Below, one piece after another: positions 5,905 through 59,685 of a stretch of DNA of 64,000 bases. The position numbers and the translations under genes were made by a program. This DNA comes from Solibacillus sp. R5-41 (GTDB lineage Bacteria; Bacillota; Bacilli; Bacillales_A; Planococcaceae): contig NZ_CP024123.1 of NCBI RefSeq assembly GCF_002736105.1, forward strand, positions 2,720,001 to 2,784,000, read 5' to 3'. The notes below the pieces were generated by a model. It was not told the DNA's origin. It saw nothing but the letters and a program-made list of their open reading frames with translations, and searched no databases. Numbering within the stretch: position 1 is the stretch's first letter; each line of letters starts with the position of its first letter.

Positions 5905-6396
5905 TTATTCAGCTTTTACTAAGAATAGAGGTTGACCATATTCTACTAATTGGCCATCTTTAACTAAAACTTCAACAATTTCACCTTTAATTTCAGCTTC
6001 GATCTCGTTGAATAATTTCATTGCTTCAACGATACATACGATTGACTCGTCGCCTACTTTATCGCCCACTTGCACATATGCAGGTGATTCTGGATTTGGA
6101 GATTGATAGAATGTACCAACCATTGGAGAAGTGATTTTGTGTAAGTCTGTTGTGTCAGCTACTGGTGCTGCTGCTACTTCTACTGGTGCTTCCACTTTTG
6201 GAGCTGGTGCTGGTGCTGCTGCTACCGCTACTGGAGCCGGTGCTGCTGCTACTTCTTTTTTAGGTGCTACTACTTCTGTTACCCCACCGTTTTTCTTTAG
6301 CTTTACTTTTGCCCCATCTGCTTCATAAACAAATTCATCAATAGATGATGCATCTACTAATTTAATAATTTCTCTAATTTCTTGAACTTTGAACAT
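5905..6396 (-). CDS. accB: acetyl-CoA carboxylase, biotin carboxyl carrier protein
   Basis: Carries biotin between the biotin carboxylase and carboxyltransferase subunits. The 163-aa product has an N-terminal segment starting [15 protein letters not shown], an Ala/Pro-rich flexible linker (residues about 45-85) and a C-terminal biotinyl domain with the canonical [12 protein letters not shown] motif, whose Lys is biotinylated. The start is supported by AGGGAG upstream. It lies downstream of spoIIIAH as in B. subtilis but has nearly 200 bases of its own upstream DNA, so independent transcription is likely. Confidence 0.97.
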
Positions 6397-6509
6397 TCTG
6401 AACTCTCCCTTTAAACAAAATTAATAATAACACAATTTCTATTTTATAATTTTTCCAATAATTTTGAAATACATTCTTGAAATTTTAATAAAAAATATCA
6501 TAAAATAGA

Positions 6510-6566
6510 GGATAACTGTGTTAAAACAAAAAACTTCAAGTTCTCTGCTATATAACACAGTCATCC
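6510..6566. other. 14-bp inverted repeat between spoIIIAH and accB
   Basis: GGATAACTGTGTTA at 6510-6523 is complementary to TAACACAGTCATCC at 6553-6566 apart from one mismatch, with a 29-base A/T-rich loop. It starts about 27 bases past the spoIIIAH stop. It could end spoIIIA transcription or be a regulatory site for accB. There is no classical T run directly after it. Confidence 0.4.
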
Positions 6567-6592
6567 ATCAATGTATTATTATTAACATATTT

Positions 6593-7129
6593 TCAATAAA
6601 ATGGTTTTATATCAACTGTTACAACTACATTATTATCCAATTCCGTTTTAATTAGGTGAACGATTTCATTCGCCTGTTTTGTAGAAGTTTCATCTGACAT
6701 AACCGTTACGGCTACTTTTTGTTCATCAATACGAACTAATGCGTCGTCATAGCCAAAAGATTTAACAAGCATTTCTAACATCGCTTCAGACGATTCCCGA
6801 TTAATGAGCTGCTCCATTTCATTGAATGCTGCATTTTTTTCTTCTGGCGTATATTCAGCAGATGCCATTTTTTGCTCTAACTGTTCGCGTAATTGACTTC
6901 TTTTATTGCTTAATTCTAAACGCATTTCTTGGAAAAGATCACTTTCTGAGCTTACTGTTTTCGTGATTTCTTGATTGACACCTAAAATATCCGTTTCATT
7001 CAATGTATCATCTGTAAAAATCGTGAGCAGATTTCCTGTATTATTGCTACCAAAGGCATAATATACCCCGATTACTGCCACTAGACTAAATAATGTTAAA
7101 AACCACACTGTACGTTTTTTTACCTTCAC
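6593..7129 (-). CDS. spoIIIAH: stage III sporulation protein AH
   Basis: Mother-cell membrane protein whose YscJ/FliF-like ring-building domain contacts forespore SpoIIQ and joins the two compartments. One N-terminal membrane helix (residues about 8-26), a charged coiled-coil-prone middle (RSQLREQLEQKM...), and a C-terminal domain ending DNNVVVTVDIKPFY, the expected ring fold position. It is 178 aa, shorter than the B. subtilis protein of about 218. Overlaps spoIIIAG by four bases. Confidence 0.9.
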   Translation of the reverse strand: MKVKKRTVWFLTLFSLVAVIGVYYAFGSNNTGNLLTIFTDDTLNETDILGVNQEITKTVSSESDLFQEMRLELSNKRSQLREQLEQKMASAEYTPEEKNAAFNEMEQLINRESSEAMLEMLVKSFGYDDALVRIDEQKVAVTVMSDETSTKQANEIVHLIKTELDNNVVVTVDIKPFY

Positions 7130-7506
7130 TTTTCTTCCTCCTTCATTTGCATAGGGACAATTTGAATGCGATGCGACGGAATTTGCAATGCTGTGCTGAC
7201 CGTAGTTTTCAATAAATTTTTCACAGTCGATTGATGCGCACCTTCTGCAACGATTATGACCCCTGTCATTTTTTGCTCTTTGGAGAGCGTTAAGAAATTG
7301 CCGCTTTCTGTTTCTTGCTCGTAATGAAAATACACTTGAACTTGTCCTACAGACTGAATACCACTTAAAATTTGTGCCAGCTGCTGTTCATCCGTCAATC
7401 GCTCTTGTCCTTTATTTGTTGAATTGAATGTGAATATAAATACTACTATGATTACGACGACGCTCCCAATTAGTAAAAGAGGACGATTCGCTTGTTTTTT
7501 ATCCAC
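7126..7506 (-). CDS. spoIIIAG: stage III sporulation protein AG (short form)
   Basis: Forms a ring in the intermembrane space between mother cell and forespore. One N-terminal helix (LLLIGSVVVIIVVFIF) is followed by a domain with GVIIVAEGAHQSTVKNLL, characteristic of SpoIIIAG. At 126 aa it is much shorter than the roughly 229-aa B. subtilis protein, mainly N-terminally and in the ring insertion. The GTG at 7506 is the best in-frame start found (an in-frame TGA lies upstream), but its G-rich ribosome site is some 16 bases away, so the start is uncertain. Confidence 0.87.
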   Translation of the reverse strand: MDKKQANRPLLLIGSVVVIIVVFIFTFNSTNKGQERLTDEQQLAQILSGIQSVGQVQVYFHYEQETESGNFLTLSKEQKMTGVIIVAEGAHQSTVKNLLKTTVSTALQIPSHRIQIVPMQMKEEEK

Positions 7507-7569
7507 ATGTTTGCGTAATGCGCCCCCCTTTTCATTTTTTCATCTCAATGTATGAGTAGTTTTGATACT

Positions 7570-7704
7570 TTATGCAAATAGGGACAAGAATAAATGAGAG
7601 ACTGAAATATAAAGTGCTAGTTTTACATACACTTGCCACTCCTTTTCTTCTACAAAAAACAATAGACTACTACCGAGCAAAACAATGAGAAGTATATCGA
7701 TCAT
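7570..7704 (-). CDS. spoIIIAF: stage III sporulation protein AF, 44-residue form
   Basis: The ATG at 7704 overlaps the spoIIIAE stop (ATGA) and is preceded by GGAGGT, so it should be translated. The product MIDILLIVLLGSSLLFF...LFLSLFA is 44 aa with two hydrophobic segments around a short charged loop. It sits exactly where spoIIIAF belongs and resembles only its N-terminal hairpin; B. subtilis SpoIIIAF is about 206 aa. No SpoIIIAF-like C-terminal sequence follows in any frame before spoIIIAG. The identity rests on position plus membrane pattern, so it is inferred. Confidence 0.6.
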   Translation of the reverse strand: MIDILLIVLLGSSLLFFVEEKEWQVYVKLALYISVSHLFLSLFA

Positions 7705-8612
7705 GTGTTACCTCCTATCGAAAGCTGCATTAAAACGATACATAACATCACAATAAAAATAATTGAAAAACCAAGCAATAATGCGACGGCACACAGCACC
7801 ATCAAGGTTTTTCCTACATCGTCAAATAGACTACTTATCCGCGTATTCGAAAAAGGTTCCACTAGCGCCCCAATAAACTTAAACATGAGTGCATGCAATA
7901 ATAGAGTCATTGCAGGATAAAATGCTGCACTCCAAACAATCGCCAAAAAGCTAATCCCGAAAATGGTAGAAATAGTTGATTGTGTCTTTTGAAATAAAGA
8001 CAGCCCTTCTACGATTAAATTCCCAATGAGCGGAATATTTTGTTCCACTAATTTTTTTATTGGTGATTTCACCGCATCATTTAACTGAAAAAATGCCACT
8101 CCTGAAAAAGATAATATTGACGTTAGTGCTAATACGGAAGCAACAATAATACTTAAAGCAGAGGACCGAATGAGATCTGCCGCTTTTGAAAATGAAATAG
8201 CGGGATAAATTTTCGTACAAACATCCAAAAATAACGCAATCAAAAGGGAAGGAATTAAAAGTTTTGTGCAAATAAATAGTAAAAAATGAATAACCATTAT
8301 GATGACTGGATTCCAAGCAATAAAGGTAAAAATCGTTGAAACAGCAATGAGCATGGTCGAAATAATCGGAATCATTAGGATAAAAAAGCTTTGAAGTACC
8401 GTAATCAGCTCACTTAATACGAGGAATGCATCCATAATTTTTTGTGCGAACATCGCGATAAAGAGGAGTATAAATAATTGTTCAATAATCGCCGTTTGCT
8501 GTGGTATGACAGCAATTAATAGTAAATAAAGGAAAATGTAGAGAGCTGTGAACGCGATTGATGTAAGAATCGACTGAATCGGCTGTGAAAACATTGACAG
8601 GAAATAATCCAT
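7701..8612 (-). CDS. spoIIIAE: stage III sporulation protein AE (N-terminally short)
   Basis: Polytopic mother-cell membrane protein of the SpoIIIA-SpoIIQ channel, permease-like. The 303 residues carry about seven to eight hydrophobic helices, and the order of loops (SFFILMIPIISTML, WNPVIIMVIHFLLF, FYPAMTLLLHALMFK) follows B. subtilis SpoIIIAE. The N-terminal signal peptide and about 90 residues of external domain of the 399-aa homologue are absent. The start overlaps the spoIIIAD stop (TAATG), so no longer N-terminus is available upstream. Confidence 0.88.
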   Translation of the reverse strand: MDYFLSMFSQPIQSILTSIAFTALYIFLYLLLIAVIPQQTAIIEQLFILLFIAMFAQKIMDAFLVLSELITVLQSFFILMIPIISTMLIAVSTIFTFIAWNPVIIMVIHFLLFICTKLLIPSLLIALFLDVCTKIYPAISFSKAADLIRSSALSIIVASVLALTSILSFSGVAFFQLNDAVKSPIKKLVEQNIPLIGNLIVEGLSLFQKTQSTISTIFGISFLAIVWSAAFYPAMTLLLHALMFKFIGALVEPFSNTRISSLFDDVGKTLMVLCAVALLLGFSIIFIVMLCIVLMQLSIGGNT

Positions 8613-9560: not shown

Positions 9561-10571
9561 TCAACTAACTGAAGTTAACTCATCAACAATCTCTTGAACG
9601 GAAGCTTCTTTAGCTAAATAACTATTTTCCCCCATCCAAAGAGATAAATATTCTGGTCTATTTTGCTTAGCACTTTCTTTGCGAATCGCGAGCGTTAAAT
9701 AGTGCTGGACGGGATAAGGTGCGACAACCGCATCCTTTAGCTTTTCTGTAAATTCATTTTTTAAGCCCCGCGCATATTTGCCTGTAAAAGCTTTTGTCAA
9801 AGTGGTTGCCTTTTGCTCCGACTCTAACACCGCACTTTTATGCACATTGCTTACCTCACACTCATGTGCCGTTAATAAAGCTGTTCCAATTTGGACCGCT
9901 GTTGCGCCCATTTCCTGCATTTCTTTCACATGCTCAGCCGTCATAATGCCACCTGCTGCGATGCAATTAATCGACACATTTTTAAGCACATCTCGTAGCA
10001 ATTGTTTTGTCGGAATCAATTCAATCGGATCTGTAAATGAGCCGCGATGTCCACCCGCTTCACATCCTTGTACAACTACCGCATCTAAGCCCGCAGTTTC
10101 AACTGCAATCGCTTCTTCCACAGTAGTTGCAGTTCCGATTAAATAAATGCCATGTGCTTTCAGACGAGTAATTATTTCATCATTTGGAAGACCGAATGTA
10201 AACGAGCAAATTTTAACATCTTCATCGATGATCGCTTGTACTTGTCCATTAAAAACTTCTGTGGAAACAACGCGCTGTGTATTGGATACACCGAGTTCCT
10301 CATAAAAAGGTTGCAATGCGACACGCGCATCTTGTAATACCGAAATGTCAATTTTCGGCTCATCTTGGACAAATAAGTTTACACAAAATCTTTTATCCGT
10401 GAGCGCTTTTACTTGCTGTATGAATTCCTTTGTTTCAGCACCATTTAAATAGCCTGCTCCGATCGATCCTAATATACCCGCTTCACAACATGCCGCTACA
10501 AATTTTGGTGATGTGACACCTGCCATCGGTGCTTGAATCATTGGTTTTCTTAAGGCGAAATTTTGCATCAT
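9561..10571 (-). CDS. nitronate monooxygenase (2-nitropropane dioxygenase family)
   Basis: FMN-dependent TIM-barrel enzyme oxidising alkyl nitronates; relatives include the enoyl-ACP reductase FabK. Typical blocks are QAPMAGVTSPKFVAA at the N-terminus, GSIGAGYLNG, CEAGGHRGSF (catalytic His and phosphate region) and a GGIMTAEHVKEM...VQIGTALLT FMN-binding stretch. AAGGAG precedes the ATG at 10571; the GTG at 10580 is too close to it. The product is 336 aa. It sits between efp and spoIIIAC, flanked by R1 repeats, which looks like an insertion into the conserved efp-spoIIIA order. Confidence 0.9.
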   Translation of the reverse strand: MMQNFALRKPMIQAPMAGVTSPKFVAACCEAGILGSIGAGYLNGAETKEFIQQVKALTDKRFCVNLFVQDEPKIDISVLQDARVALQPFYEELGVSNTQRVVSTEVFNGQVQAIIDEDVKICSFTFGLPNDEIITRLKAHGIYLIGTATTVEEAIAVETAGLDAVVVQGCEAGGHRGSFTDPIELIPTKQLLRDVLKNVSINCIAAGGIMTAEHVKEMQEMGATAVQIGTALLTAHECEVSNVHKSAVLESEQKATTLTKAFTGKYARGLKNEFTEKLKDAVVAPYPVQHYLTLAIRKESAKQNRPEYLSLWMGENSYLAKEASVQEIVDELTSVS

Positions 10572-37682: not shown

Positions 37683-37757
37683 ACACTGATTTTTAAGGGG
37701 AGCTTTTCGAGCAAGCTCGAAAAAATCTGGACGCAATTATGCCGAGGCGTAATTGAT
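37683..37757 (+). repeat. dispersed intergenic repeat, family R1 (right half only)
   Basis: GATTTTTAAGGGGAGCTTTTCGAGCAAGCTCGAAAAAATCTGGAC followed by GCCGAGGCGTAATTGAT. The CGAGC-AA-GCTCG core is a short palindrome found in all long copies. Confidence 0.85.
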
Positions 37758-38834
37758 CTAAACTTCTATATAAAGCATTTTTTTCTCGAGTCGGTAGCCT
37801 TGAATCGCTTTGAAATAAAAGTAGACACAATAAATACTGAGCACAAAATTGATAATGGTTAAGACCGTCAAAAAATTCCATTGTCGAAACAATTCATTAA
37901 TCTGTAATTGTAGGAGGAAGTTAAACCCATTTACCAAGAATAAAAACCCAAAAATCGTTGTCGACATTTTCAAATTACGCTTCATTCCTTGCAGTCTTTC
38001 TTCAAATACATACGTAATTTTAGGTTCGGGCTCCACCACATTGTATGGCATTGCCCAAATGCTGCTATTCCAATACGATGTATTCGATGTATGCTTTAAT
38101 TGCCAGCCCATCTCTTGGTGAAGTTGATAATAGGAGCTGTTCACCGAGTTTTCATACAATATTTCGTAGCTTATTTTTTCACACGACCTTGGTACAAAAT
38201 AAAAAAACAAATTCGAGGCGCGCTCTAATTCAAAGCCCTCTTCAAATAATTGATTGAGCCATTTTTTCGTATAGTACGGCTGATAAAACCAACCAATGCG
38301 CATTTTCCGTATCGCTTTTTTACTCCGCTGGCTCATCGGCAAACCAAGATATTTTTTCTCCTTTTTACGGAAATACGAATAAACTACCCATATACAGCCG
38401 AATAGAAAGCCATGCACAGCAATAACTGCTAACCAAATCACAGGATAGGAAACACTACCCCATAAAATAGTCATCATCAAAAATGGCAATGTAATAAATG
38501 GAATAAGGAATGATAAAAGGAATACTAGAACCAAAAAATGCGTGCGAAATCTTTTAAACGCTTTTTCTTTCGATGGAAAAATGGTTGCTTGCTCGGACGT
38601 AAATAATGTCCATTTCTTTCTCTGCCAAACAAGTTCCCAGTTCGCCTGTGTTAAACGCTCTGTGTCTGAAGCATAGTCAATTAAATACGTACTTTTCTTT
38701 TTTTCACCTTGTTCAAACTCAAATTGACTCAAATAATTTATCCGTGTAAAATGCTGCCCTTTGCTCGCCATTTCACTAAGCCACTGTTCCGTCTCTTCAA
38801 TTCGGTAACTCCAAAATGGTCGCCATCTTGTCAT
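37758..38834 (-). CDS. DUF2812 membrane protein
   Basis: 358 aa with a repeated two-part layout: a soluble DUF2812 module (WRPFWSYRIEETEQWLSEMA, FEQGEKKKSTYLIDY) and two helices, then a second related soluble stretch (KKWLNQLFEEGFELERAS) and two more helices. Function unknown; usually encoded beside PadR regulators, as here. Overlaps the PadR gene by four bases. Confidence 0.88.
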   Translation of the reverse strand: MTRWRPFWSYRIEETEQWLSEMASKGQHFTRINYLSQFEFEQGEKKKSTYLIDYASDTERLTQANWELVWQRKKWTLFTSEQATIFPSKEKAFKRFRTHFLVLVFLLSFLIPFITLPFLMMTILWGSVSYPVIWLAVIAVHGFLFGCIWVVYSYFRKKEKKYLGLPMSQRSKKAIRKMRIGWFYQPYYTKKWLNQLFEEGFELERASNLFFYFVPRSCEKISYEILYENSVNSSYYQLHQEMGWQLKHTSNTSYWNSSIWAMPYNVVEPEPKITYVFEERLQGMKRNLKMSTTIFGFLFLVNGFNFLLQLQINELFRQWNFLTVLTIINFVLSIYCVYFYFKAIQGYRLEKKMLYIEV

Positions 38835-42875: not shown

Positions 42876-45212
42876 TCAAACTTGAATAAAACTACCTTGC
42901 AAAGCATTTCGTAAAAACGGGCTCGGCTCCCCTACACTGTATAGTTGCAATTCATGCATCGCTCTCGTGCAGGCGGTGTAGAAAATTCTGCGTAAGCTTT
43001 CATCACCGTATACTTTCTCCGATGCATCATAAATGATAACCGCTTCGAATTCAATCCCTTTAGCCAAATAGGACGGGATAACGACAACACCTTGTTCATA
43101 TTCTGGTGAGCCGTTCTTTAACAGCTTTATACCATCAATACTAGATAACGCTTCATAGGCATTCTTACTTTCCTCAGCTGATTTACATATGATAGCAATA
43201 CTAATATAACCGGCACTCTGTAAAGCTGCGACTTTGGATAAAATACTACGGTGAAGCTGTTCATGATCGATTACTTGTGTCAATACCGGCAACGCGCCAT
43301 CTCGTTCAAAAGGAATAATTTTTTCACCATTCGGAACGAGTTTTCGCGTGAAATCAATGATCGGTTTTGTGGATCGATAGCTACGTGTCATATTGATTAC
43401 TGCTGTTTCGTCCTGTCCGTACAAGCTGCTAAGAACGTGGAAATCCACCATTTCACTGGCATGTGCAAAAATCGCCTGATTAAAGTCCCCGAGAACAGTC
43501 ATTCTAGCAGATGGAAATAAACGCTTAATAAATTCGAATTGAAATGGCGAATAGTCCTGCGCCTCGTCAATCAATATGTGCTTGATTGAGCGATTCGTTT
43601 GAAAACCTTGTATTAACTCTTTCATAAGCAAAAACGGTGTAGCATCTTCGTAAAATAATTTACCTTCATCTAGCACTTCTAACGTTGCACGACAAATCGC
43701 GTTCCATTCAGCAGGCGTTTCCCCTTCAATCCACTCATTAATTTGCAACGGATCGGCAAAAAGCTGCTTGTAGATTCCAAGTATATCAACGAAATCAAAC
43801 GCCCGTATACGTTTTCGCAACGGACTCAATTTTTGAGTAACAACCAACCTTTCAAGCGCTTCAGGTTCCATCTCATAATCAGCAATTGAATCACGTGCAA
43901 AACCGCGCTTTTTTGCTAAATAAGTTTGCGCTTTATAATAATCCTCATTGCTAAACAGCTCAATTTCTTCCTGTACCCACGGCTTCATCCGTTCCACTTT
44001 ACCCGCGTCTTTTACAAGCTTCAAAACCCAATCCTTCAAATTTTCAAGCCTGTTTTGAAAGTGGATTGTAGGATCACTGCTATAAAATTTATCCGCGAGT
44101 TGTTGCGCTGTCACAATTGGCTGTCCTCTGAAAATGATATCCTTGAATAACATGCCCCTTACTTCCAGTGACTGCCTATATGCTTTGATCACTTCAAAAA
44201 ACACAGTAGATGCTTTGAACTGGATGCCCGTAACCCTTGACTGGTGCGCAGGTGTATTCGTACCAGTTAAAACATATTCTAACTGATCGTACGGATTTTC
44301 AACTTGAAGCTCGTTGCTCAGTCGATGGTCCAAATATTCCTGAAACGTAACTTGCTGCATATTCTCCTCACCAAGTTCCGGTAACACATTGGATACATAG
44401 CTGTTGAACATAGCATTTGGTGAAAATAAAATAATTTGATCCGCCGTCAAACTTGCACGATATTTGTAAAGTAAATAAGCAATTCGTTGGAGCGCGGCAG
44501 ATGTTTTACCACTACCAGCAGCCCCGTGAACAACGAGCAGTCTCCCATGATCATGACGGATAATTTGGTTTTGCTCCTGTTGAATGGTCGAGACGATACT
44601 GTGCATATGTTTGTCAGTACCATTGCCCAAAACTTGCTGTAAAATTTCATCTCCAATCGTAAGACTCGTATCGAACATCGATTGCAGGACGCCATCTCGA
44701 ACAAGATATTGCCATTTTTTCTTCAATTGTCCTTGAACTATCCCCCCAGGAGTTGCATAGTGGGCAAGGCCCGGCTCGTAATCATAGTAAACACTCGAGA
44801 TCGGTGCTCGCCAATCATAAATAAGGAAGTCTTCACCACTTTCGTCCATTAGTGAAGAAATGCCAATATACACTTGCTCCTGATTTGAATGCCCTTCTTC
44901 CATGAAATCAATGCGGCCGAAATAAGGAATTTTCTGCATACGGTGTAGCGTATCCAATTTTTTGGATGCATGTTTATGTGTGCTTTGACTGACAGACAAT
45001 GCTTGCGTTTCTTGTCTCAAGCTGATAATCGTTTCTAAAAAATCGTCAAAAGTATCGGCGTTTACCTTAATTTCATCCCAAAAATGTTTGCGAATATGAA
45101 TGACTTCGTTGCGGCGCTTAGATGTTTCTTTTTCTAAATGGTTAATTTGCTCTGTAATGACCTCCATTACATCGTCCACTCGTTTTTGCTCCTGCTGAAA
45201 TTGTAAATTCAT
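42876..45212 (-). CDS. helD: RNA polymerase recycling motor HelD
   Basis: 778 aa, matching B. subtilis HelD (about 774). The N-terminal coiled-coil arm (EQKRVDDVMEVITEQINHLEKE) reaches into RNA polymerase; a UvrD/Rep-like ATPase follows with Walker A HGAAGSGKTSAALQR, DEAQDYSPFQ (Walker B), SYRSTKPIIDF and C-terminal VIPSYLAKGIEFEAVII. HelD frees stalled RNA polymerase from nucleic acid. AAGGAG lies eight bases before the ATG at 45212. Confidence 0.95.
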   Translation of the reverse strand: MNLQFQQEQKRVDDVMEVITEQINHLEKETSKRRNEVIHIRKHFWDEIKVNADTFDDFLETIISLRQETQALSVSQSTHKHASKKLDTLHRMQKIPYFGRIDFMEEGHSNQEQVYIGISSLMDESGEDFLIYDWRAPISSVYYDYEPGLAHYATPGGIVQGQLKKKWQYLVRDGVLQSMFDTSLTIGDEILQQVLGNGTDKHMHSIVSTIQQEQNQIIRHDHGRLLVVHGAAGSGKTSAALQRIAYLLYKYRASLTADQIILFSPNAMFNSYVSNVLPELGEENMQQVTFQEYLDHRLSNELQVENPYDQLEYVLTGTNTPAHQSRVTGIQFKASTVFFEVIKAYRQSLEVRGMLFKDIIFRGQPIVTAQQLADKFYSSDPTIHFQNRLENLKDWVLKLVKDAGKVERMKPWVQEEIELFSNEDYYKAQTYLAKKRGFARDSIADYEMEPEALERLVVTQKLSPLRKRIRAFDFVDILGIYKQLFADPLQINEWIEGETPAEWNAICRATLEVLDEGKLFYEDATPFLLMKELIQGFQTNRSIKHILIDEAQDYSPFQFEFIKRLFPSARMTVLGDFNQAIFAHASEMVDFHVLSSLYGQDETAVINMTRSYRSTKPIIDFTRKLVPNGEKIIPFERDGALPVLTQVIDHEQLHRSILSKVAALQSAGYISIAIICKSAEESKNAYEALSSIDGIKLLKNGSPEYEQGVVVIPSYLAKGIEFEAVIIYDASEKVYGDESLRRIFYTACTRAMHELQLYSVGEPSPFLRNALQGSFIQV

Positions 45213-45429
45213 CGCAATCACTCCTTAAAAAAATCAATATGTGGGGGTTGACTAATGAAAAACCATATTATATAATTAACGTAGGGATAATATATAATAC
45301 AAAATTTTATATTGTCTAACTATATAAATTTACCATGATTTCACGTTTGTTTCAATACATTTAACGTGGATTTTTTGCGTTTTCTTACACTTATTTTCTC
45401 CCTCGTTGCTAGGACTATCCTCCAAAATA

Positions 45430-45460
45430 AAAAAGGAATACTAAATGATTTAGTATCCCC
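45430..45460 (-). terminator. intrinsic terminator of the Ntn-hydrolase operon
   Basis: Minus strand GGGATACTAAAT / ATTTAGTATTCC followed by TTTTTTATTTT, about 80 bases past the Ntn gene stop. The remaining 45213-45430 is AT-rich and contains the helD promoter region; nothing else seen. Confidence 0.85.
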
Positions 45461-45539
45461 CAAAAAACTTCATTTCTTTTTAAGAACAATTTTTCATCTA
45501 TGGCGTTATAATAAATTATAAACCCACTATAAAATCCCT

Positions 45540-46247
45540 TTACATATTCCGTCCATCTGACCTTACCCAAACCGTTTCATCCTTGGTAATCTGCACAATA
45601 TCAATATTTCCACCAACTGTTTGAAGTTCTTTACTTTTATTAACGTTTTCTTTTATTACTTCCGCAATCACATTATAAACAAATTCAATTAACTCGTTGT
45701 TACTTTTCTGTATAAGTGCGGCAGCCAACTCATCATTACTAATTGTTGGATTTTGCCCACTAAACTTAATCATATTACTAAAAATTTGCTCATGGTCACT
45801 ACCACTAAATCTAAAACCATATTCATTTAATGGTATTGGATAATTTTTAATATGTTCCCCATCTTTAAATTCCATCGATACAAAGACTAATTTCCCTCCC
45901 TCGGATCCCCCTAGATGTATTTGAGTTGTAAATCCCGTGAAATAACTGCAAAATTTTCTTATGACATATTCAATCGTATCGTTTATCGTCATCTTTTCAC
46001 TGTTGGGATAATGCTCCAATCCATAAACTAAGTCATTAATATCCATATATCTAGAAATAACCTCATTCGTGTCCTTATTGAAAATAAAGCGCGTTAAGCT
46101 TCCAGAAAAAGAAATCGCAACCTTATTCGGTAAAATAAATATCTTTTTACATTGATCATTGTGGACCGGGGTATTTTTCCATGACGCCCTACTATCAATT
46201 GCCATAATGATGGAATCCTTGCCCTTTACGTTTAACGCAACAGTCAT
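45540..46247 (-). CDS. proteasome-beta-like Ntn hydrolase
   Basis: 235 aa. The start MTVALNVKGKDSIIMAIDSRASW mirrors proteasome beta/HslV subunits: Thr2 can become the N-terminal nucleophile after Met removal, with Asp18 and Arg20 of the D-S-R motif and a Lys-containing strand (QCKKIFILPNKVAISFSG) at the Lys33 position. GGSEGGKLVF-like and YGFRFSGSD blocks follow the Ntn fold order. Not HslV by length. No partner ATPase is adjacent; instead four tiny genes precede it on the same strand. AAAGGGG precedes the ATG. Substrate and assembly unknown. Confidence 0.72.
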   Translation of the reverse strand: MTVALNVKGKDSIIMAIDSRASWKNTPVHNDQCKKIFILPNKVAISFSGSLTRFIFNKDTNEVISRYMDINDLVYGLEHYPNSEKMTINDTIEYVIRKFCSYFTGFTTQIHLGGSEGGKLVFVSMEFKDGEHIKNYPIPLNEYGFRFSGSDHEQIFSNMIKFSGQNPTISNDELAAALIQKSNNELIEFVYNVIAEVIKENVNKSKELQTVGGNIDIVQITKDETVWVRSDGRNM

Positions 46248-46347
46248 TAAACCTATCCCCTTTCCCGCAAGATATGGCTATTTTATGATTGCGCGTTTAC
46301 AAATATCAACAGGGATTTACCAGTTGCAAAATATTATGAGTCAAGCG

Positions 46348-46641
46348 TCACATGTTAATGCTACTAATTTTCCTTACTACAGATACTAAAATAGCAATAA
46401 CAAAAACAATCATACTATTTATCATTAAAAAGCCTCCTATTTGCAAGCCATAAAATATTGCAAAACCATCTTTAAGAATAATTATCGCCAATAATCCACC
46501 TATTGAACTAAACAAAGCCGCTAGTAATAATATTGTAAAAGCTGCAGAATATAGACTTTTCTTTTTCCAAAATGTTATACATCCAATAATATTTGCACTC
46601 ACGATAAAAAGGAACATCGTTATTAAGAGAAAATTCTCCAT
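46348..46641 (-). CDS. small membrane protein, 97 aa
   Basis: Unrecognised. Three hydrophobic segments (FLLITMFLFIVSANIIGCI, FTILLLAALFSSIGGLLAII, MINSMIVFVIAILVSVV). AGGGAG is just before the ATG, which follows the previous gene's TAA directly. Probably co-transcribed with the Ntn hydrolase gene 100 bases downstream. Confidence 0.65.
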   Translation of the reverse strand: MENFLLITMFLFIVSANIIGCITFWKKKSLYSAAFTILLLAALFSSIGGLLAIIILKDGFAIFYGLQIGGFLMINSMIVFVIAILVSVVRKISSINM

Positions 46642-46842
46642 TTAACTCCCTACTTTCTTACTATTCTTAAACTTTGAAATTACACTAAATATTATCCAAC
46701 TAATAATTCCGCCCAACACTAAAGGAATTACTGTTAAATAGCTGGTCTCCTTAATAATATTTAGTAAGGCGACTGTTATGATACCACCAAAAAACATGCC
46801 CACGATAATGAATATCCATGTTAAATTTCGTTTAATATTCAT
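46642..46842 (-). CDS. small membrane protein, 66 aa
   Basis: Unrecognised. Basic N-terminus and two helices (WIFIIVGMFFGGIITVALL, YLTVIPLVLGGIISWIIF), basic tail KFKNSKKVGS. GTGAGGAG precedes the ATG. Abuts the 97-aa gene. Confidence 0.65.
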   Translation of the reverse strand: MNIKRNLTWIFIIVGMFFGGIITVALLNIIKETSYLTVIPLVLGGIISWIIFSVISKFKNSKKVGS

Positions 46843-46883
46843 ACTTTATCTCCTCACTCCTATCAATTTATTTCGAGATACTT

Positions 46884-46964
46884 TCAAAGCATTTTATAAA
46901 CACTATATCCAATAAAAATGACGAAAATAATCAAAATTAATTCGCCTATTTCTTTAATGCTCAT
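46884..46964 (-). CDS. possible 26-residue single-helix membrane peptide
   Basis: ATG at 46964 directly follows the TGA of the 43-aa gene, so it could be translated by coupling. MSIKEIGELILIIFVIFIG and SVYKML form one membrane helix. No independent ribosome site; plausible only because its neighbours are small genes in the same direction. Confidence 0.35.
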   Translation of the reverse strand: MSIKEIGELILIIFVIFIGYSVYKML

Positions 46965-47096
46965 TCAAGGAGTATTGGGCATACCTGCTTGTGTACGGTT
47001 AAGATGATCATCGAAATTGCCAGTAGGATTCTTTTTGTGTTCCTCCTGAGTTAAACGTTCCCTTTGTTTTTCAGGTGTTTCTTTATTTGAAGTCAT
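46965..47096 (-). CDS. small charged protein, 43 aa
   Basis: GGAGGG lies six bases before the ATG at 47096. The product (MTSNKETPEKQRERLTQEEH, then KKNPTGNFDDHLNRTQ...NTP) is hydrophilic, with no membrane segment. Unrecognised. First gene of the operon that ends with the Ntn hydrolase. Confidence 0.6.
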   Translation of the reverse strand: MTSNKETPEKQRERLTQEEHKKNPTGNFDDHLNRTQAGMPNTP

Positions 47097-47362
47097 TCAC
47101 AACCCTCCATATATTGGTATATTATTTCTAGATAAATACCCCAAAAACCTTTAATTTAACGCAAAAACGGCACTGTTAAACTCAAACAAACCTTTGGGAA
47201 TTACCCAATAATTACAATGTAATTTTGCGCCCTCATCCATATTGGCATTATAATACTGGAAAAGATAAGCAGCTCCCCGATCTAATGAAGGACGAAATTA
47301 TACAATTCCCATATAATAAATAAAAACTGTTCATACATAGTCATTTAAAGGAGGTTTTAAGT

Positions 47363-47617
47363 TTGCGCGCGTCCATCCTGTTGAGAAAAATCGCTTTAGC
47401 AGCACTCTCGTTTCTCGTTATTACTGTTCTTTATTCTTTCATTTGGTATAAGGAAAGCTTTGATAGACCGGTTTGGATACAAGTTGTGATGATTTTTTGC
47501 TTTTTGATGTTGAGTATCAATAATTTCAAATTAAAGAAATACATGATGGCGTGGCTTTTTGCCGGAATCACGCTAGCTTTTAGCATTAGTATATATTGGA
47601 ATGTTACCGCTGTGTGA
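47363..47617 (+). CDS. small membrane protein, 84 aa
   Basis: TTG start with AAAGGAGG eight bases upstream. Three hydrophobic segments (ALAALSFLVITVLYSFIWY, WIQVVMIFCFLMLSI, WLFAGITLAFSISIYW) separated by short basic loops. Unrecognised. Lies divergently from the Ntn operon and converges on the anti-sigma-like gene. Confidence 0.65.
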   Translation: MRASILLRKIALAALSFLVITVLYSFIWYKESFDRPVWIQVVMIFCFLMLSINNFKLKKYMMAWLFAGITLAFSISIYWNVTAV

Positions 47618-47633
47618 TGCAGGTTTGCCTATC

Positions 47634-47685
47634 AAAAAAGGCGCACAACCGAAAATTCAGCTGTACACCACCACAAGGATGCGCC
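47634..47685. terminator. probable terminator between convergent genes
   Basis: GGCGCA / TGCGCC arms 34 bases apart with a T run on the minus-strand side. The stem is short, so it is only probable. Confidence 0.45.
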
Positions 47686-48566
47686 TACCAAAAAATGTTA
47701 TGAAATATAACGATTAACCATAAACTTTTGATGATGATGTCCATTTTCCTCCAATAATTATTACCATGAAATGTTTCCAGCACAATGTTAATTACTGCCA
47801 ATAGGATGCACAAAAAAACAACATAAAAATAATGAATATTTGGAGTGATAATTACTATAAATAACGTGAAAAGTGACAAGACAATCATTACAATGGATTG
47901 TTTATTTGTCGAATACATTGGAATTTTACGCTTTTTATCAGTTGGTTCACGCATTTTCCGACCAACAAGCCAATCTAACAACAGATACAATGTAGTAGTA
48001 ACGATAATTACGATTATTTTAATACGATCTTTTTCGCTATGCTCAAAACTCGGTATTATGACATCTTTCCCAACCGAAAATAAATGGTCATTCGTTTTAT
48101 CATAAAAATAAGAACCGGATCCGCTATTGTATTCAACAATAATTCGAGATGAGCCATCATGATAATTCAGCCTGTAGGTATTTTGAATAAAGGCATAATC
48201 TGGAATCGACTTCTCTACCAAGATTAGCTTATTCATAAATTGTTCCATATGTGTAAGTGACTCCTGATCGGTAAATTCATCGACTCCCATTTGCCACTTT
48301 GAGTTTGGATTCCCTTCCCCGTAAAGCATATAAATCGCTTCCAGTCGTGGTTCTTCATCGTTTTCACTCGTGATTATTTGTTGCTTTGGCATGGAGGCGA
48401 TGAGAAAGACGATGATGCATAGAACGCCAATAACTGCCGATGGAACTTGCCAATGGAATTTTTTTCGATTGATACGCGATTCTATTTGTTTAAAGTCGTG
48501 TTCTAATTTCGCCGTATCAACTTGAATTTCCGTTAATTGCTGCAATTGTTTTTCCTCATTCATCAT
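47685..48566 (-). CDS. membrane protein, putative anti-sigma factor
   Basis: 293 aa. A cytoplasmic N-terminus (QLTEIQVDTAKLEHDFKQIE), a helix (SAVIGVLCIIVFLIASMP), an external domain of about 110 residues, then four helices (IIVTTTLYLLLDWL and beyond). Not a classical zinc anti-sigma protein. It overlaps the sigma factor gene by 11 bases and follows it, the usual place for an anti-sigma factor; role inferred from that. Confidence 0.68.
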   Translation of the reverse strand: MMNEEKQLQQLTEIQVDTAKLEHDFKQIESRINRKKFHWQVPSAVIGVLCIIVFLIASMPKQQIITSENDEEPRLEAIYMLYGEGNPNSKWQMGVDEFTDQESLTHMEQFMNKLILVEKSIPDYAFIQNTYRLNYHDGSSRIIVEYNSGSGSYFYDKTNDHLFSVGKDVIIPSFEHSEKDRIKIIVIIVTTTLYLLLDWLVGRKMREPTDKKRKIPMYSTNKQSIVMIVLSLFTLFIVIITPNIHYFYVVFLCILLAVINIVLETFHGNNYWRKMDIIIKSLWLIVIFHNIFW

Positions 48567-49032
48567 CTACACCTCCTAGTAATATTCGCAACGCTTTTAA
48601 GCCGCGCGCCGTATTATTTTTCACTTTCGCTTCACTGCAACTTAAAATTTCTGCCGTTTCCTTCACCGAATATTCCTCAATATAGCGCAGCACAATAACT
48701 TCACGGTAACCCCATTTAATTCGTTGCAACGCGGCATATAACTTTTCAAGCTCGTCAGTTTGAATAACGACTTCCTCGGGTAATTTCTCCTGCGCTTCAG
48801 GCTCTGTTTTCAGCTGGAAAAACGATAAAATCTTTTTTCTGCGATAATAATCGTATACAATGTTGCGTGCGATTTTTAGTAAATAAGTTCTTTCGTGCTC
48901 GGTATAATTTTTTTGATAATAGCGGTAAAAGGTTTCCTGCAAAAAATCATGCGCTAATTCTGCATCATTCGTTAAATACCGTATGTACTTGTAAATTGCC
49001 TCATAATGGGCATCAAAAAGCTCACGTCGCAT
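48556..49032 (-). CDS. ECF-type RNA polymerase sigma factor
   Basis: 158 aa with region 2 (FDAHYEAIYKYIRYLTNDAE, DFLQETFYRYYQ), then TYLLKIARNIVYDYYRRKK, and region 4 (RIKWGYREVIVLRYIEEYS, VKETAEILSCSEAKVKNNTARG). An extracytoplasmic-function sigma factor. GGGGGAG lies just before the ATG at 49032; the frame is open to 49113 but lacks a better start. Probably controlled by the membrane protein encoded next. Confidence 0.92.
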   Translation of the reverse strand: MRRELFDAHYEAIYKYIRYLTNDAELAHDFLQETFYRYYQKNYTEHERTYLLKIARNIVYDYYRRKKILSFFQLKTEPEAQEKLPEEVVIQTDELEKLYAALQRIKWGYREVIVLRYIEEYSVKETAEILSCSEAKVKNNTARGLKALRILLGGVDDE

Positions 49033-49116
49033 CCATTCTCCCCCCTCTCCCTTAAAGACGAACGACGCTTCCATTGGAATCACTTTTTCAACAATTATAT
49101 TTTCAACACACAAAAA

Positions 49117-58794: not shown

Positions 58795-58979
58795 TCAATT
58801 ACGCCTCGGCGTATTTGTGTCCAGATTTTTTTCGAGCTCGCTCGAAAAAAAATCTGTGACATCCGCCGGGGCATTAACTTGATTCAGCTGGGTTTTGAAC
58901 CCACATTGAATAAAATTGCATATTTGGCATTCATCCCCCACTTATACAATTAAGGGACTTCTGCTGAAACAAGTTAACT
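58795..58979 (-). repeat. dispersed intergenic repeat, family R1 (inverted copy)
   Basis: Read on the minus strand: GTTAACTTGTTTCAGCAGAAGTC, GTGGGGGATGAATGCCAA, a GGGTTCAAAACCC block, CGAGCGAGCTCG palindrome core with AAATCTGGAC, end block GCCGAGGCGTAATTGA. Fills the lipM-yqhL intergenic space. Confidence 0.88.
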
Positions 58980-59478: not shown

Positions 59479-59480
59479 TA

Positions 59481-59685
59481 TCAATCAAGCCTCGGCTAAC
59501 TCTTGTCCAGATTTCTTCGAGCCTGCTCGAAAAGCTCCTTTTAAAAATCTATGACAGCCGCCAGGAGCATTGGGCCAACACGATGTTGGTCACTCAGGCG
59601 GGGTTTGAGCCCTACTGAATTAAGTGCTGATTTAGTATTTATCCCCCACATATAGAAGGAATGACTTCTGCTGAAGCAAGTTTAA
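59481..59685 (-). repeat. dispersed intergenic repeat, family R1 (inverted, with the CCAACAC palindrome block)
   Basis: Minus strand: ACTTGCTTCAGCAGAAGTC, GTGGGGGATAAATAC, GAGTGACCAACATCGTGTTGG, GGCGGCTGTCATAGATT, GGAGCTTTTCGAGCAGGCTCGAA, ATCTGGAC and end block GCCGAGGCTTGATTGA. The palindromic CCAACA-CG-TGTTGG block is shared with family R2. Confidence 0.88.

Follow-up and report, generated by a model that had tools for sequence, protein, structure and literature searches.

The window analysed here, a stretch of 64,000 nt from Solibacillus sp. R5-41 (NZ_CP024123.1, positions 2,720,001-2,784,000 of a 4.28-Mb single-contig genome; the host, of the genus Solibacillus, is a soil bacterium), probably carries a solitary, horizontally exchanged gene, equipped with its own promoter, that encodes an ATPase-independent, proteasome-like threonine hydrolase of an orphan Firmicute kind. 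The gene and its accompanying signals, in window coordinates, are as follows.

45540..46247, minus strand: orphan proteasome-like N-terminal-nucleophile (Ntn) hydrolase, 235 aa (PF00227 above cut-off; Thr2, Asp18, Arg20, Lys35, Gly49; C-terminal TVGGNID strand)
46280..46309, minus strand: promoter-like site of the Ntn gene, TTGATA-18 nt-TAAAAT (consensus match only)
45433..45461, minus strand: terminator-like stem-loop downstream of the Ntn gene, 13 pairs plus T tail (from the sequence)

On profile and motif evidence, the product is an Ntn hydrolase of the proteasome type, in agreement with the first-pass annotation of this DNA, and the 235-aa ORF does have the Met-Thr start noted there, together with the D-S-R and K motifs. 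The Pfam family PF00227 (Proteasome) matched residues 4-51 with an E-value of 2e-6 and 28 bits, against a curated cut-off of 22.4. Used as a single sequence, the protein gave a weak match to solved proteasomes (E 0.02); with a profile that included distant relatives, 214 PDB chain sequences were matched (E up to 0.1; best E 7e-9) and the 60 listed of these were all proteasome subunits, this profile evidence resting partly on relatives that were themselves found via PF00227. AlphaFold, run with alignments of 2 and 3 sequences, returned models of low confidence (mean pLDDT 34.5 and 38.7), and when such a low-confidence model was used in Foldseek, the first 44 matches were all proteasome chains, none of them with an E-value <0.001.

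The catalytic residues are in their expected places. When aligned by profile with the PDB chains, Thr2, Asp18, Lys35 and Gly49 fall on the catalytic Thr1, Asp17, Lys33 and Gly47, with residue 2 coinciding with Thr1 of mature beta subunits and the TVGGNID at the C-terminus with the corresponding strand; the similarity to solved proteasomes is strong over the first ~115 residues only. The K motif is a K34/K35 pair, in which Lys35, rather than Lys34, is the equivalent of Lys33 because one extra residue precedes it. Thr2, Asp18, Arg20, Lys35 and Gly49 are invariant in all five orthologues known to us from the genus, and the values of dN/dS across the ten pairs of these orthologues lie between 0.09 and 0.20; by this measure the gene is kept by purifying selection. 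Ten more distant relatives (G303, G560, G467, G375, G918, G684, G765, G776, a viral contig and an Enterococcus plasmid) all begin Met-Thr or Met-Ser, where the reading for G684 uses the second Met of the ORF. Thus, the catalytic position that the first-pass annotation would have expected in homologues is retained, as Thr2 in five of five orthologues and as Thr or Ser in ten of ten distant relatives.

The start of the Ntn gene looks secure, as one orthologue (G108) has GTG in place of ATG at the same position and a Shine-Dalgarno-like AAAGGGGA lies upstream of the start codon. The promoter-like site belongs to a class of consensus matches of which 15 were found in the region and 11.9 were expected; its -10 element lies inside DNA that is conserved at all five loci, where conservation begins ~75 nt before the start codon. 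The enzyme had previously been placed at the end of a one-direction operon with a shared terminator. The common strand and the terminator-like structure (45461-45433) stand, whereas a single operon with the small genes upstream is not needed, because the gene has a promoter-like site of its own and conservation of the DNA starts there. Read-through into the Ntn gene from upstream genes may nevertheless occur in R5-41. No Rfam structured RNA was matched at 45000-47600.

Five of the 16 Solibacillus genomes yielded an orthologue and the other 11 did not; searches of 250 genomes of the family, 261 of the order and 398 of the class gave none in any other genus. One of the four further carriers is Solibacillus palustris MA9, which was also the only relative returned by the second of two scans of genome contigs, the first having returned none. 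Across the five genomes, the gene occupies at least three unrelated chromosomal sites: the R5-41 site matches that of G062 on just one side, the G108 copy has a separate site, and the copies of G114 and G120 lie at a common site inside a variable stretch of 5-8 kb. Common to all five loci are the Ntn gene and ~75 bp upstream, and in G108, G114 and G120 conservation is limited to the gene and this ~75 bp of promoter DNA. At the nucleotide level, the R5-41 copy is 87 % identical to those of G114 and G120 and 81 % identical to that of G062; for the same genomes the identities of HslU are 78-79 % and 89 %, and those of HslV 83-84 % and 94 %, respectively. The species nearest to R5-41 by its housekeeping genes is therefore the most distant by its Ntn gene, a discordance that points to exchange by horizontal transfer among members of Solibacillus. 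Neither an integrase nor a repeat boundary nor a clean empty site was found at the Ntn loci, and no target-site duplication can be read for the G108 copy, since the DNA next to it lacks conservation in sister genomes. Separately, 56 bp left over from the 3' end of the Ntn gene (L009 1325-1380; 84-86 % identical) lie ~7 kb from the intact copy of G062, which suggests the loss of a second copy.

If the gene is exchanged, it might have come from a phage or a defence system, still serve phage-host or plasmid-host conflict, and have moved as a single gene. We consider this explanation unlikely. The horizontal exchange itself speaks for it, as does the carriage of the proteasome homologues PPH and AAH by phages (PMC8665760), and so do the settings of distant relatives: one is carried by a Paenibacillus-like prophage (L047), others lie in two regions resembling prophages (L061, L062), another comes straight after an operon for type I restriction (L063), and one was found on a plasmid of Enterococcus. 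Against it, no phage, restriction or integrase genes were seen around the Solibacillus copies, no PADLOC defence family was matched, and several relatives (L059, L060) lie between ordinary chromosomal genes. Moreover, tblastn of the R5-41 protein against plasmids and phages gave no match, direct similarity searches of viral contigs gave none either, and further scans for viral relatives yielded one contig only. The earlier proposal of peptide processing or defence accordingly finds no direct support at the R5-41 gene. By analogy a role of such enzymes in genetic conflict is possible, the prophage, restriction and plasmid settings being those of distant relatives only. A related and similarly doubtful idea is that of a single-gene mobile unit, in which the promoter-bearing hydrolase would be self-sufficient cargo that spreads alone by conferring a selectable advantage, for example in conflict with phages or plasmids.

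Two of these settings may be described for their own sake. In the L047 prophage, the orphan Ntn hydrolase stands beside a DUF4917 protein, and this pair (6001-7771) has a recombinase/repressor region on one side and the large terminase on the other. In the restriction setting (L063 207-6801), the gene after hsdS encodes an orphan Ntn hydrolase of the Ser2 type in both G467 and G375, which belong to one genus; in G467, where the hsdR-hsdM-hsdS operon is complete, a gap of ~50 bp separates it from the Ntn gene.

For the solitary hydrolase that we favour, the following course of events would apply. The Ntn gene would be transcribed from its own promoter and the product would then lose its initiator methionine. 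Methionine aminopeptidase removes Met1 when residue 2 is Thr; as this is the case here, removal is expected, and Thr2 would be exposed at the mature N-terminus. Its hydroxyl would attack the amide bond, while Asp18 and Lys35 would tune this nucleophile and Gly49 would form the oxyanion hole, as would correspond to the roles of the Thr, Asp/Lys and Gly residues in proteasome homologues (PMC8665760). As had been noted before, there is no HslU- or Mpa-like ATPase gene among the neighbours searched by family (42876-48566), and the enzyme would act without a dedicated unfoldase; for this reason it probably acts on peptides, on unstructured proteins or on a single specific partner. The gene would be an accessory one, passed among Solibacillus species together with its promoter. 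Family membership, motif spacing, residue invariance, selection, the lack of conserved neighbours and discordant divergence are read from the sequences, and we infer promoter use, Met removal, catalysis, any oligomer and the substrate.

Instead of a general peptidase, the enzyme might be a specific ligase or serve in processing, in the manner of connectase. The lack of an unfoldase nearby would also suit such a role, and the ligase connectase is indeed among the proteasome homologues (PMC8665760). Connectase is marked by a signature insertion between strands 3 and 4 (PMC8665760), and the proteasome profile match of the R5-41 protein crosses this region without a large insertion; judged by the signature insertion only, a connectase-like activity is thus highly improbable.

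The small genes that precede the enzyme, together with a repeat that bears on one of them, are listed below.

46348..46641, minus strand: 97-aa membrane protein gene (neighbour, outside the unit)
46642..46842, minus strand: 66-aa membrane protein gene (neighbour, outside the unit)
46884..47096, minus strand: DUF6366 gene (PF19893, by Pfam profile), split by an in-frame TGA into ORFs of 43 and 26 aa
9420-9499, 37684-37758, 58795-58902 and 59480-59571 of the window, and 9585-9646 and 12134-12250 of L009: copies of a palindromic repeat

The first-pass annotation had counted the 43-aa and 26-aa ORFs as separate proteins. They match positions 1-40 and 47-68 of the PF19893 profile in the same frame with one TGA between them, and at the corresponding place in G062, another Solibacillus, DUF6366 is uninterrupted (L009 9671-9880); they are consequently parts of one gene, in R5-41 a split pseudogene. 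DUF6366 was found in 42 of the 101 genomes sampled from the family, nearly all of which are without the Ntn enzyme. In-frame stops were seen in DUF6366 genes of other family genomes as well (L016, L019, L021), and the family appears to decay repeatedly. Relatives of the 97-aa gene were seen in 30 of the 139 family genomes surveyed; only in R5-41 does the gene stand beside the enzyme: it is absent from the carriers G062, G108 and G120, G114 has a marginal distant match elsewhere, and in five other genomes none of the Ntn, 66-aa and DUF6366 genes was found within 1.5 kb of it. As for the 66-aa gene, its single relative was seen in G062, one of the four other carriers, at the corresponding site, and there the palindromic repeat stands in place of the 5' end. 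This repeat is ~75-108 bp long, resembles a MITE or REP element, and has four copies in the window and two at the G062 locus. Elsewhere in the window (47685-49113), a sigma-factor-like gene (48556-49113) is followed by a membrane protein gene that resembles an anti-sigma factor, and the latter diverges much faster between species (63 % amino acid identity, against 82 % for the sigma-factor-like gene).

On this comparison of genomes, the small genes are unrelated neighbours, two of which are decaying in one genome or other, and the neighbourhood survey that the earlier proposal of a self-standing system had called for shows no conserved linkage in most other carriers. That soluble and membrane miniproteins work together with the hydrolase as a multi-gene system is therefore an idea to which we give almost no credence: all of the genes share a strand, the gaps between them are short and no site resembling a terminator was called there, but DUF6366 is split by a stop and mostly occurs in genomes free of the enzyme, the 97-aa gene adjoins the enzyme in a single genome, and the 66-aa gene is disrupted in the one other carrier that has it.

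The survey of 2021 described 22 subfamilies of proteasome homologues without assigning functions to them (PMC8665760). Against this background, the Solibacillus lineage offers a compact and genetically isolated case, with one gene, no partner, a presence in 5 of 16 species and apparent exchange between them. Since a single gene without a partner is patchily distributed within a genus, it should be straightforward to test, by gain and by loss of function, a relative of the proteasome that has no unfoldase. The locus also illustrates that small genes adjoining such an enzyme can be unrelated neighbours.

Among known systems, the 20S proteasome beta subunit shares with the R5-41 protein the register of its catalytic residues and the C-terminal GG-x-I-D strand; it differs in that the Ntn gene has no alpha subunit or Mpa/PAN nearby, the protein lacks a propeptide, and the Pfam score is only 28 bits. 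HslV (ClpQ) is likewise a proteasome-type Ntn hydrolase with a catalytic Thr at its mature N-terminus; however, HslV pairs with HslU, and the R5-41 Ntn gene has no adjacent HslU. Every Solibacillus genome has HslV at one separate locus, with HslU adjoining it in the five Ntn carriers, and in R5-41 this pair (HslV at C1:960122) lies 1.8 Mb from the Ntn gene. Profile-profile comparison with HslV fails (0.9 % probability, E 0.06), whereas comparison with the orphan Firmicute relatives gives 97 % probability and an E-value of 5e-11 over 190 columns. Identity with HslV was rejected on these grounds: the missing neighbour HslU, the failed profile comparison and the separate HslV/HslU pair. A weak match (E 2e-4) was obtained to PHROG 1040, the peptidase HslV family, which, like PPH and AAH, represents horizontally moved proteasome homologues; PPH, however, is a group I protein of ~140 aa, whereas the R5-41 protein has 235 aa and its gene showed no phage genes in its surroundings. 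Anbu, BPH and connectase resemble it as stand-alone prokaryotic proteasome homologues, and none of the three was among the library matches of the Ntn protein.

The closest resemblance is to the Firmicute clusters FC1-FC5, which are included in the 22 new subfamilies of proteasome homologues (Fuchs, Alva & Lupas, 2021; PMC8665760). These subfamilies are without AAA+ partners or informative contexts and have the same catalytic residues, and FC1-FC5, which fall into group II, lack a propeptide and are often phylogenetically narrow (PMC8665760). The R5-41 protein, compared with them by cluster description only, shares a home in the Bacillota, the Thr/Asp/Lys triad with the oxyanion Gly, a patchy distribution and an uninformative gene context; it differs in that its lineage turned up nowhere but in 5 of the 16 Solibacillus genomes. 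It agrees with the description in being specific to the Bacillota (only Bacillota genomes having been searched) and in having neither a propeptide nor an AAA+ neighbour. By this likeness in description, the R5-41 enzyme fits a known kind, the orphan, ATPase-less bacterial proteasome homologue.
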